Shown piece by piece: positions 4,384 to 7,539 of a stretch of DNA of 14,165 nt. The DNA comes from Hyphomicrobiaceae bacterium (GTDB lineage Bacteria > Pseudomonadota > Alphaproteobacteria > Rhizobiales > HXMU1428-3). The stretch lies in NCBI GenBank assembly GCA_028285025.1, contig JANQQH010000236.1:1-14165 (forward strand). The letters run 5' to 3'. Below the pieces are notes generated by a model. It worked only from the letters and a program-made list of their open reading frames with translations, did no database searches and was not told the origin of the DNA. How positions within the stretch are numbered: the stretch's first letter is position 1; each line of letters begins with the position of its first letter. The position numbers and the translations under genes were made by a program.

Positions 4384-5514
4384 TCAAGGTGCCAGGCAAC
4401 TGTCAAAACGAGTTGCTAAATCACCCATTAGAGATGAATAAGCTTTTGGCCCGGCTTCTATTTTAACCCCGATAGGATCAAGCATAGCCGTTTTTACAGA
4501 CGTACCAGACACAAGAGAGTTGACTATTTTTTTGTTATATTGCGGTTCAGCAAAAACACATACCACTTTTTCATTCGACAGTTTTGCGCGCAGTTCACGC
4601 AAATGCTTAGCACTTGGAGGAACTGTGGGGTTAAGGGTCAGAGCCCCTGTAGCTTGAAACCCGTAACTGCCGGTAAAGTAACCATAAGCATCATGAAACA
4701 CCATAAAATGCCGTCCCTTTAAATTGGACATGCGCTGTTTTAAAGAGCTCTTAAGCCCTTCAAGTTGCTTTATTTGCGCCGCTGCATTTTTTTCAAATTG
4801 AACTTTATGGGCAGGGTAAAGCTCACTCAATTTTGTTTTGATCGCTTTGGTGATGACAATGGCATTGTCCAAACTCAGCCAGATATGCGGGTCAATGCCA
4901 CCTGAATGATCATGACCATGGTGCCCATGATCATCATGGTGTCCATGGTCTTTGTGGTCGGTTTTCTTTTTCCCGTGGTCATGCCCATGATCATCATGGT
5001 GTCCATGGTCTTTGTGGTCGATTTTCTTTTTCCCGTGGTCATGCCCATGATCATCATGATGTCCATGGTCTTTGTGGTCGGCTTTCTTTTTCCCGTGATC
5101 ATGGTCATCATGATGACCAGTCTCATGAGCATGGTCTCCATGATCGTGAGGGGAGCCAAACTTACGTAAGTTCAGTGAAGGCAGCTTTAGTAAAGGAAAT
5201 GATACCTTTGGTTTAGACAAACTTGAAACAATATTTTTCAGTGGTGTTTCCAGTTCTGGCCCCACCCAAACAAGAAGGTCAGTGTTGTGCAGGCGCCGCG
5301 CATCAGACGGTTTCAGCTGAAAATGGTGTGGGCTAGAGGCCCCTTTTAACAGTAAATAAGGGGTTCCCACCCCTTGCATGACGCCGGCCACCAAACTATG
5401 TACCGGTTTAATCGTAACAACCACATTGGGCTCTTTTGCTTGCAAGGCCCAAATGGAGCCAGAAAGAAGGTACGCAAACGTAAAAAATATCAAGAAACGT
5501 GCTCGTGAGATCAT
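4384..5514 (-). CDS. znuA: Zinc ABC-transporter periplasmic binding protein ZnuA with expanded His-rich loop
   Basis: From the ATG at 5512-5514 the product has 376 residues. GAGG six bases upstream supports this start over an in-frame TTG at 5526. Residues 1-26 are a signal peptide (WALQA-K). The metal-binding fold follows: PHHFQLKPSDA (H63/H64), DPHIWLS (H210) and FHDAYGYF (H274) match the three histidines that ligate zinc in ZnuA, and LDPIG (D346) sits at the fourth position. C319 and C373 match the disulfide of Escherichia coli ZnuA. Residues 123-203 are a long His/Asp-rich loop containing three 20-residue repeats of the form GKKK-x-DHKDHGHHDDHGHDH. In the known system ZnuA captures zinc in the periplasm for ZnuB/ZnuC; neither gene is in this window. 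Divergent from zevA, with three Zur-type operators in the shared control region. Confidence 0.95.
   Translation of the reverse strand: MISRARFLIFFTFAYLLSGSIWALQAKEPNVVVTIKPVHSLVAGVMQGVGTPYLLLKGASSPHHFQLKPSDARRLHNTDLLVWVGPELETPLKNIVSSLSKPKVSFPLLKLPSLNLRKFGSPHDHGDHAHETGHHDDHDHGKKKADHKDHGHHDDHGHDHGKKKIDHKDHGHHDDHGHDHGKKKTDHKDHGHHDDHGHHGHDHSGGIDPHIWLSLDNAIVITKAIKTKLSELYPAHKVQFEKNAAAQIKQLEGLKSSLKQRMSNLKGRHFMVFHDAYGYFTGSYGFQATGALTLNPTVPPSAKHLRELRAKLSNEKVVCVFAEPQYNKKIVNSLVSGTSVKTAMLDPIGVKIEAGPKAYSSLMGDLATRFDSCLAP
4921..5100. repeat. Three tandem 60-bp repeats inside znuA
   Basis: Units 4921-4980, 4981-5040 and 5041-5100 are in phase with the codons and encode the 20-residue His-rich units. The first two differ at 2 of 60 positions; the second and third differ at 4. 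Such near identity implies recent duplication or ongoing homogenisation. All frames stay open through the array, which creates false open frames on both strands. Confidence 0.95.
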
Positions 5515-5532
5515 TTTTTGCCTCAAACTTCG

Positions 5533-5561
5533 ATTAAAAGATTTATGTAATATTATTACAA
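5533..5561 (-). promoter_or_regulatory. Predicted znuA promoter overlapping the first operator
   Basis: On the minus strand TTGTAA (5561-5556) and TTTAAT (5538-5533) are separated by 17 bases. The operator at 5546-5560 fills the spacer and overlaps the -35, so a bound repressor would block polymerase. Transcription would begin around 5526, about a dozen bases before the znuA ATG. Confidence 0.45.
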
Positions 5562-5610
5562 GCTATATAATGTAATATTATTACAAGCTATATAATGTAA
5601 TAATATTACA
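5546..5610. promoter_or_regulatory. Triple palindromic operator, probable Zur boxes
   Basis: Three 15-bp sites of the form TGTAAT-N3-ATTACA lie at 5546-5560, 5571-5585 and 5596-5610, each separated by the same 10-base spacer AGCTATATAA. The first two are identical (centre ATT); the third has centre AAT, so it is the same site on the other strand. The arms are perfect 6-bp inverted repeats. The position between znuA and the zinc genes zevAB, and the resemblance to AT-rich palindromes bound by Fur-family Zur proteins, point to Zur; the regulator gene is not in the window. The znuA ATG is 32 bases from the nearest site and the zevA ATG 123 bases. Confidence 0.8.
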
Positions 5611-5732
5611 GGCAATAAATATCTTAATCTCTCCCATTTTGCGTTATATTAAGGGACAGCAACGGGCCAAATTTGTTGAGCGCAAAGTTGGTTGAATAAC
5701 GTCCCATTAAGGCATAAAGGATATTAAAACAA

Positions 5733-6404
5733 ATGCAAAACATGAACGTTTATGTATGTGCCATACTAAGCGCCTTGTGCTGGGCCGGCTTTGCGAACAA
5801 GGCTCAAGCTCACCCCCATGTATTTATTGAAAGCGAAACAGAAGTTTTACTCAATACAAAACATCAAATTACCGGCTTTCGTCATAAATGGGTTTTTGAT
5901 AGCCAATACACCGCCTTTGCCCTTGTTGGAATGGATGTTGATAAAGATGGCAAATATTCTCCTCACGAATTGGAACCCTTAGCCAAAGAAAACATCGAGA
6001 GCTTGCATGAATATGATTTTTTCACCCATGGGACTTATAAAGGCAAAGCGATAAAACTTGAAAACCCAACTGATTATAAATTAACTTATATTAACAATGT
6101 GCTGGCTCTAGAATTTACTCTGCTAGCGAAACAACCGGTTTCTATTTTAGGCAATCCATTAAAATTGGCCATATATGACCCTGAATTTTTCATCGCTTTT
6201 CTAGAGCCTAAAAAACAAAAGGAAATGCGCCTTGCCAGTACCGCCCCTAAAAATTGCATGTTTGAAAAACGAAAAGCTGCAATGGATCAAACCAACCTGG
6301 TTGAAAGCCGCTTAGGACAGCCCATGGATTTAAGCAACGATGAGAACATTGGCGCAGGCGCCTTTTTCGCCCCGTCTTTCCATATTTCCTGTCTGACCAA
6401 TTAA
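5733..6404 (+). CDS. zevA: DUF1007 (COG3683) periplasmic zinc-associated protein, ZevA-like
   Basis: The 223-residue product has a signal peptide (1-26, cut at AQA-H). The mature protein would begin HPHVFIE, the typical opening of DUF1007 proteins, placing two histidines at its N terminus. Residues 68-80 (DVDKDGKYSPHEL) look like an EF-hand loop, common in this family. C175 and C220 near the C terminus could form a disulfide. In Haemophilus influenzae the orthologous ZevA, with ZevB, is required for growth under zinc limitation; direct function is still poorly defined. The ATG is preceded by AAAGGA 11 bases upstream; an in-frame ATG at 5742 is an alternative. zevB follows after 16 bases, so the two are co-transcribed, probably under the shared Zur-type operators. 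Assignment to the family is firm; the metal is inferred from context. Confidence 0.88.
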   Translation: MQNMNVYVCAILSALCWAGFANKAQAHPHVFIESETEVLLNTKHQITGFRHKWVFDSQYTAFALVGMDVDKDGKYSPHELEPLAKENIESLHEYDFFTHGTYKGKAIKLENPTDYKLTYINNVLALEFTLLAKQPVSILGNPLKLAIYDPEFFIAFLEPKKQKEMRLASTAPKNCMFEKRKAAMDQTNLVESRLGQPMDLSNDENIGAGAFFAPSFHISCLTN

Positions 6405-6420
6405 GCTAATAATTTACAAA

Positions 6421-7539
6421 ATGCATAATACGTCAATTTACAAATCTGTTTTTCTGTTTTTGATAATGGGAGTGCTGCTCGTTGCACCTGTTGGTTCTGC
6501 TAGTAGTGCTGAAAACAAAAGTACCACACACATTCAGATCGCCCAAAGTGAAAGCCCGGCTCAAAAAAACAGCCTAAAAGCTTTAAGAAAAGCCCAAGAA
6601 GAAGCCAGCCAAAAACAAATAGCTGCTAGCCCCCCACCACAGCCAAATCTATGGACAACAACAAAACGTTGGATTGCCCAAAAACAAGCTGAGATAAGTC
6701 GCACATTTAGCCATTATATAGATCGGTTCCAACAAACCAACGACGCCCGCTTTGCACTGGCCCTCATCCTAGCAAGCCTGGCTTATGGTTTGGTCCATGC
6801 TGCCGGGCCCGGCCATGGCAAAGTGGTAGTTTCTTCTTATGTCATGGCCAACAATCAAACCATGAAGCGTGGTATATGCCTTGCTTTTCTCAGCTCTTTT
6901 GTCCAAGGCACTGTTGCCATTGTTCTGGTTGGCGGCATGGCTTATCTGTTTAATGCCACCGGGGCAAGCATCAAACAGTTCGGCCTCAAGCTTACCCAGC
7001 TTTCTTACATCTTCATCATTATGCTCGGACTTTATTTATTGGCCAGCACCGCCTTGCGTCGATTTAAAACCGCAACAGCTGTAAAAGAAAAACACAGCCC
7101 CTCATGTGATCACCACCATCATCACAATCACGATCATCACCATGCAGATGAGGACTGCGGGTGCGGTCATGCCCATATCCCCACTAGCGATCAAGTGCAA
7201 GGCAATTGGAACGTTGCCAAAATTGCATCCCTGGTGCTCTCAGTTGGTTTGCGTCCTTGCACAGGTGCCCTTTATGTTCTGGCCTTTGCCCTGATCAAAA
7301 ATTTATTTTGGGTCGGCGCCATTGCCGTCTATGCCATGGCGTTGGGCACAGCGGTGACCATTTCTCTGATGACGATGGCTGTAGTTGGTGGGCGCGAACT
7401 CGCTTTGGTGTCAACCGCTGGCAATCACCGCGGGGTTCGTCTTGTTTATGATCTTTGCGCCTTTGGTGGCGCCATAGCTATTATTCTTTTTGGAAGCCTG
7501 TTGCTAGCCGGCAGCTTAGGCCCCGTCTCTCCTTTTTAG
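6421..7539 (+). CDS. zevB: NicO/RcnA-like metal permease (COG2215), ZevB-like
   Basis: The 372-residue membrane protein begins with a signal-like segment (8-27) and a hydrophilic periplasmic stretch (about 30-108). About six membrane helices follow. The family hallmark HAAGPGHGK is at 126-134 in the first core helix region, and GLRPCTGAL at 276-284 is the second conserved motif. Between them, residues 229-252 form a His/Cys-rich loop (CDHHHHHNHDHHH then DCGCGHAH), expected to bind transition metals. RcnA relatives export nickel and cobalt; the branch encoded beside DUF1007 genes, as here, is linked to zinc in Haemophilus (ZevB). Direction of transport is not settled by sequence. Gene order zevA-zevB, opposite znuA with common operators, argues for a role in zinc acquisition or distribution under shortage. 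A nickel/cobalt role remains a less likely alternative. Confidence 0.88.
   Translation: MHNTSIYKSVFLFLIMGVLLVAPVGSASSAENKSTTHIQIAQSESPAQKNSLKALRKAQEEASQKQIAASPPPQPNLWTTTKRWIAQKQAEISRTFSHYIDRFQQTNDARFALALILASLAYGLVHAAGPGHGKVVVSSYVMANNQTMKRGICLAFLSSFVQGTVAIVLVGGMAYLFNATGASIKQFGLKLTQLSYIFIIMLGLYLLASTALRRFKTATAVKEKHSPSCDHHHHHNHDHHHADEDCGCGHAHIPTSDQVQGNWNVAKIASLVLSVGLRPCTGALYVLAFALIKNLFWVGAIAVYAMALGTAVTISLMTMAVVGGRELALVSTAGNHRGVRLVYDLCAFGGAIAIILFGSLLLAGSLGPVSPF

Follow-up and report, generated by a model that had tools for sequence, protein, structure and literature searches.

The 218-bp gap between znuA and a zevAB-like gene pair in a Hyphomicrobiaceae bacterium (assembly GCA_028285025.1) carries three perfect 15-bp palindromes, and we consider it highly probable that this array is a Zur operator repressing znuA and zevAB, that its third copy arose by tandem duplication and that its boxes are bound independently of one another. 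When zinc is sufficient, zinc-loaded Zur dimers would occupy the 15-bp boxes and fill much of the stretch in which transcription would start, repressing znuA (leftwards) and probably zevAB (rightwards). As zinc falls, Zur would be released and both znuA and zevAB would be made. All coordinates given below are positions in the window, by which we mean the whole stretch of 14,165 nt that was analyzed, from contig JANQQH010000236.1.

Anatomy of the box array and its flanking genes

The three boxes start at 5546, 5571 and 5596, at a step of 25 bp, and all of them match TGTAAT-N3-ATTACA without a mismatch, as a first-pass annotation of this DNA had described. Predicted Zur box 1 (5546..5560, TGTAATATTATTACA) is the closest of the three to znuA, whose likely ATG (5514) lies 31 bp away. 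Predicted box 2 (5571..5585) has the same sequence, and predicted box 3 (5596..5610, TGTAATAATATTACA) lies 122 bp before the start of zevA at 5733. The two 10-base spacers (5561..5570 and 5586..5595) both read AGCTATATAA, again in line with the annotation. Its description of the third box as oppositely oriented comes down to a single central base: at position 8, box 3 has A where the other two have T, and apart from this position every box is symmetrical, so a meaningful orientation of box 3 is not supported. The first two units (5546-5570 and 5571-5595) agree at 25/25 bases, spacer included, and the third unit (5596-5620) matches them at 20/25 bases, with 14/15 matching in its box. Tandem Repeats Finder placed a 25-bp tandem repeat of 2.9 copies (93% matches) at 5545..5617, containing all three boxes, which bears out the local duplication suggested earlier. 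The array is not a product of chance. Among 20,000 dinucleotide shuffles of the 218-bp gap, at least one box (degenerate form TGTWAYNNNRTWACA) appeared in 14 and two boxes appeared in 0.

To the left of the array, znuA (4384..5526, reverse strand), for the zinc-binding protein of an ABC importer, has an open frame from TTG 5526 and a likely start at ATG 5514 behind GAGG. Its product matches the ZnuA models of both Pfam (3.7e-60) and NCBIfam (270.4, above the cut-off of 268). To the right, on the forward strand, lie a zevA-like gene (5733..6404), matching Pfam DUF1007, and a zevB-like gene (6421..7539) encoding a NicO-family membrane protein (Pfam NicO, 2.2e-31). An NCBIfam search with the zevA-like protein gave no match, and the zevB-like protein gave a weak one, below the cut-off, to a nickel/cobalt efflux model. 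The evidence for the ZevAB assignment here consists of the DUF1007 and NicO matches, and the name zevA for the DUF1007 gene is tentatively taken over from the first-pass annotation. The stretch encoding the His-rich loop of znuA (4922-5103) is also a tandem repeat (60 bp, 3.0 copies, 95%); operator and His-rich coding stretch are both threefold repeats.

An overlap of one box with a predicted znuA promoter had also been proposed. A promoter scan of the znuA strand returned one site, with its -10 at 5605-5600 inside box 3, and this result is indistinguishable from chance, shuffles averaging 1.8 sites. In a looser scan, -10-like hexamers appeared inside the AT-rich boxes on both strands. On the zevA strand, perfect TATAAT hexamers occur at 5566-5571 and 5591-5596, where the repeat joins a spacer to a box; a possible -10 element was thus copied along with the duplicated unit. 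Because these scans could not place the promoters of znuA and zevA, we infer the repression of zevAB rather than read it from promoter positions.

One further possible zevA -10, TATATT at 5645-5650, lies beyond box 3, which may place this box just upstream of the zevAB promoter. Such an arrangement would suit a Zur that represses znuA but activates zevAB, with ZevAB acting on surplus metal. The NicO family membership of ZevB and its weak match to the efflux model point the same way, and Zur is described as activating zitB in Streptomyces coelicolor, where its box lies 8 nt ahead of the -35 (PMC5472717), and an efflux operon in Caulobacter (PMC4176598). We nevertheless regard activation of zevAB as very improbable: the -35 part belonging to TATATT is weak (3/6), the TATAAT hexamers on the same strand inside the array are equal or better, and ZevAB of Haemophilus is described as a system of zinc acquisition (PMC8000910, PMC10563805). 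In the genus to which the window belongs, the partner of znuA is zevAB instead of znuCB, a pairing that supports a zinc role for zevAB.

The Zur-like regulator and its predicted sites across the genome

The bacterium's own genome (G000; 2.41 Mb assembled in 549 contigs, 90% complete) encodes three FUR-domain proteins. One is Zur-like: among NCBIfam models it fits Zur best, although its 92.6 bits stay under the cut-off of 167, and its best solved relatives are E. coli Zur (4mtd, 1.6e-19) and 7dh7, which is entered as a Fur-family regulator and which we take to be Xanthomonas Zur. A Zur homologue, on which the first-pass reading depended, is thus present. Tyr45 and Arg65 of E. coli Zur, which contact DNA (PMC4219657), are conserved here as Tyr56 and Arg76. 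The same source describes salt bridges between Asp49 and Arg52 that link Zur dimers. Aligned to 4mtd, our protein keeps Asp49 as Asp60 but has Ala63 in place of Arg52, and Ala is also found at this position in six other Zurs of the genus that were compared. The Asp49-Arg52 pair, the mark of an E. coli-type cooperative Zur operator, is therefore incomplete here, and this weakens the case for cooperative binding of Zur at the array, which the annotation had suggested beside a graded response, judged from the aligned residues. The pair is given as conserved among gram-negative Zurs by PMC4219657 and as conserved only in enterobacterial and actinobacterial Zurs by the review PMC6103462. Of the other two FUR-domain proteins, one is an Irr above the cut-off and one, truncated where its contig ends, resembles Fur most.

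Scanning the own genome for the exact pattern retrieved the three places in the array only, compared with 0 for a backwards control. Allowing up to one mismatch added one site, at C360:589-603, 36 bp before the gene for the Zur-like protein. Matches at this level are thus confined to znuA/zevAB and zur, and the wide spread at unrelated genes that the annotation had named as refuting its case is not seen. With two mismatches there were 54 sites and 64 for the backwards control; as their number does not exceed the control, such sites are uninformative. When the motif was relaxed and one mismatch allowed, 9 sites were obtained, compared with 6 in the backwards control. The five of these besides the array and zur (on C137, C194, C251, C259 and C478) have no recognised zinc-uptake gene near them. 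The site on C478 (L052 about 2044-2058) lies some 200 bp before a porin-like gene, the count of such sites being at chance level. A wider Zur regulon was not found in this genome, where targets may be missing from an assembly that is 90% complete and in 549 contigs.

Zur sites in Alphaproteobacteria are described as GTTA-N5-TAAC (PMC4176598), and the boxes of the array are 15-bp palindromes of the GTWA-N5-TWAC kind, like the alphaproteobacterial Zur box. In principle a different metal regulator (Fur, Irr or a nickel or manganese sensor) could use them in place of Zur, given that the genome holds two more FUR-domain proteins and that ZevB falls in a nickel/cobalt transporter family. We hold this to be extremely unlikely, since the motif resembles the Zur sites described in other Alphaproteobacteria (PMC4176598, PMC5387054), stands conserved before both znuA and the gene for the Zur-like protein, and the two remaining regulators are identified as Irr and as closest to Fur. 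The reading of the boxes as a Zur operator is well supported by these comparisons, and its sharing by the divergent znuA and zevAB, as proposed at first, is supported by the presence of the Zur-like protein, by the confinement of close matches of the motif to znuA/zevAB and zur and by its retention in relatives.

The second predicted target recurs throughout the genus, where a site with up to two mismatches precedes zur in 8/8 genomes. It starts 32 to 51 bp upstream in seven of these and 125 bp upstream in the eighth (G007). Since further two-mismatch sites lie upstream of it in 6/8 loci, the evidence for this site is its agreeing position. A znuC-like gene follows zur in 7/7 genus relatives. 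In the own genome zur is located at a contig edge, and the edge of contig C35 holds a piece of znuB (137 residues compared, 62% to G005). The gene behind this piece, presumably IspG-like, is also the one found there in G005 (76%). The import genes are thus divided into a zur-znuCB set behind a single imperfect box and a znuA/zevAB set that has three perfect ones.

An ATP-binding gene on contig C349 was considered as the znuC of this system and rejected: it follows a cobalamin riboswitch, there is no good box in the 616 bp scanned upstream (one two-mismatch site), and in the relatives the znuC-like gene follows zur. The riboswitch (RF00174, 104.7 bits, L057 3956-4182) precedes this metal-type ABC ATPase and the start of a permease. 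Close relatives of the ATPase (73-83%) are present in 3/7 other genus genomes.

Box number and spacing among relatives

Of 41 genomes (the own genome and 40 relatives), 25 encode a zevA-like protein, including 7/8 of the genus. The same motif stands before znuA in relatives, in support of the annotation's reading. Box pairs are placed between znuA and zevA at 25 bp in G002, G003 and G004 and at 17 bp in G001 and G005. G006 has one good box (filter count) and a degenerate second site 25 bp off, and G007, which gave no zevA match, has a 22-bp pair before znuA. At L023, from Hyphomicrobiales MAG OFTM213, the boxes are placed as in G003. In a tree of the Zur proteins, the own genome, G001 and G005 are set apart from G002, G003, G004 and G006 (support 100/99), and simple shared inheritance therefore does not account for the window's 25-bp step. 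The nearest relatives in this tree, G001 and G005, are those carrying 17-bp pairs, which makes the route from such a pair to the array hard to trace.

An order-wide survey covered 70 znuA upstream regions in 69 genomes (G191 twice). One region (G003) came from L023. For the other 69, 199 genomes of the order were searched (183 matched), the regions being taken among the matches listed where these reached query residue 32 or earlier; G100 qualified and was left out. Boxes were called at up to one mismatch to YGTWAYNNNRTWACR. At least one box was present in 64/70 regions, whereas each set of single-base shuffles gave about three such regions, and two boxes never fell within 60 bp of each other. 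Six regions had none, 25 had one, 36 had two and three had three. The window alone (1/70) packs its three boxes into 60 bp; the other two three-box regions owe their count to a one-mismatch site that lies 84 or 377 bp off.

Neighbouring boxes within 60 bp of each other were spaced by 15 bp (1 case), 17 (4), 18 (1), 19 (1), 20 (2), 21 (7), 22 (12), 23 (2), 24 (1), 25 (5), 27 (1), 37 (1) and 51 bp (1), so that 21 or 22 bp made up 19/37 of the spacings of 15-27 bp (kinship uncorrected). The 25-bp spacing occurred five times, always in the window's genus and twice within the window. We rejected helical phasing as a conserved rule, spacing varying from 15 to 51 bp (kinship uncorrected). The functional helical phase that had been attached to the 25-bp step is thus not supported by the relatives, where the step is 17, 22 or 25 bp within the genus and most commonly 21-22 bp across the order.

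In a tblastn analysis of the divergent neighbour (69 regions), 46 were znuC-like, 8 zevA-like and 2 zur-like, with none recognised in 13; one of the latter is G005, where zevA is further off. Where a divergent partner was recognised, 35/57 regions had two or more boxes, compared with 2/12 where none was (Fisher p 0.009, kinship uncorrected); one of the twelve, G007, runs off its contig. This distribution suggests that two boxes may serve two divergent promoters and that the third in the window is an addition, although 22/57 partnered regions have one box or none. The six boxless regions include three from family f2 (L121, L123, L126), in which znuA is divergent from zevA and a degenerate TGTTATAATATACG stretch lies near the znuA start. 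The ancestral state was probably two boxes at the divergent promoter pair, the usual operator. In this lineage a tandem duplication of the 25-bp unit of box plus spacer would then have produced three near-perfect boxes, replication slippage being its most likely cause.

The third box and known Zur operators

If slippage produced the third box, it could also be a neutral by-product, with one or two boxes sufficing and the 25-bp period being the length of the duplicated unit. We regard this as a real but doubtful possibility. The rarity of three boxes within 60 bp (a single region of the 70), the 25 single-boxed regions and the variable spacing within the genus are all compatible with it, and the complete identity of units 1 and 2, spacer included, is what a recent duplication would leave. 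On the other hand, all the palindromes are perfect bar the centre, and the flank of unit 3 has drifted more than its box (20/25 for the unit, 14/15 for the box), hinting that box 3 has been kept. Under the preferred reading, the extra box most likely provides tighter or redundant repression through independent binding. The meaning of additional Zur boxes is called unclear in the review PMC6103462, which takes independent and more stringent repression as most likely, and in PMC9337993 two boxes and activation are not linked; we adopted independent binding on these grounds.

Of the published systems, the divergent zur/znuA promoter in Paracoccus denitrificans comes closest, with two motifs of a 15-bp palindrome that are described as bound by Zur in gel shifts (PMC5387054). 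Both systems combine an alphaproteobacterial Zur, 15-bp palindromes and a divergent znuA region. There, however, the partner is zur and the motifs are two, whereas the window has three in a 25-bp repeat, with zevAB as partner, and is known from sequence. Rhizobium leguminosarum likewise has a Zur-dependent 15-bp box before znuA, 41 bp from its start, but one box is reported in PMC12183173 rather than an array. More than one Zur box per promoter, as here, is described for Streptomyces coelicolor znuA and Bacillus subtilis yciC (PMC6103462); these have 'at least two' boxes of other sequence serving one promoter direction. The E. coli znuABC operator shares Zur-repressed zinc import and the binding of more than one dimer to the DNA, but its two dimers are adjacent and joined by the Asp49-Arg52 salt bridges (PMC4219657), in contrast to separate boxes 25 bp apart and a Zur with Ala for Arg52. 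Three-box Zur arrays at znuA were not found in the open-licence literature searched, which does not prove their absence. We see the array as a slightly atypical version of a familiar system, with the look of an ordinary switch that has gained an uncommon additional copy.

Box number might also set the order of the starvation response, zur-znuCB, with its one imperfect box, being released first and znuA/zevAB, with three perfect boxes, last or most sharply. We think this unlikely on present evidence; if it were true, a tandem-repeat operator would act as a threshold dial, altered by slippage between related species. In other respects the system is one of routine zinc homeostasis. With none, one, two or three boxes standing before the same gene in related species, the role of extra Zur boxes becomes directly testable.
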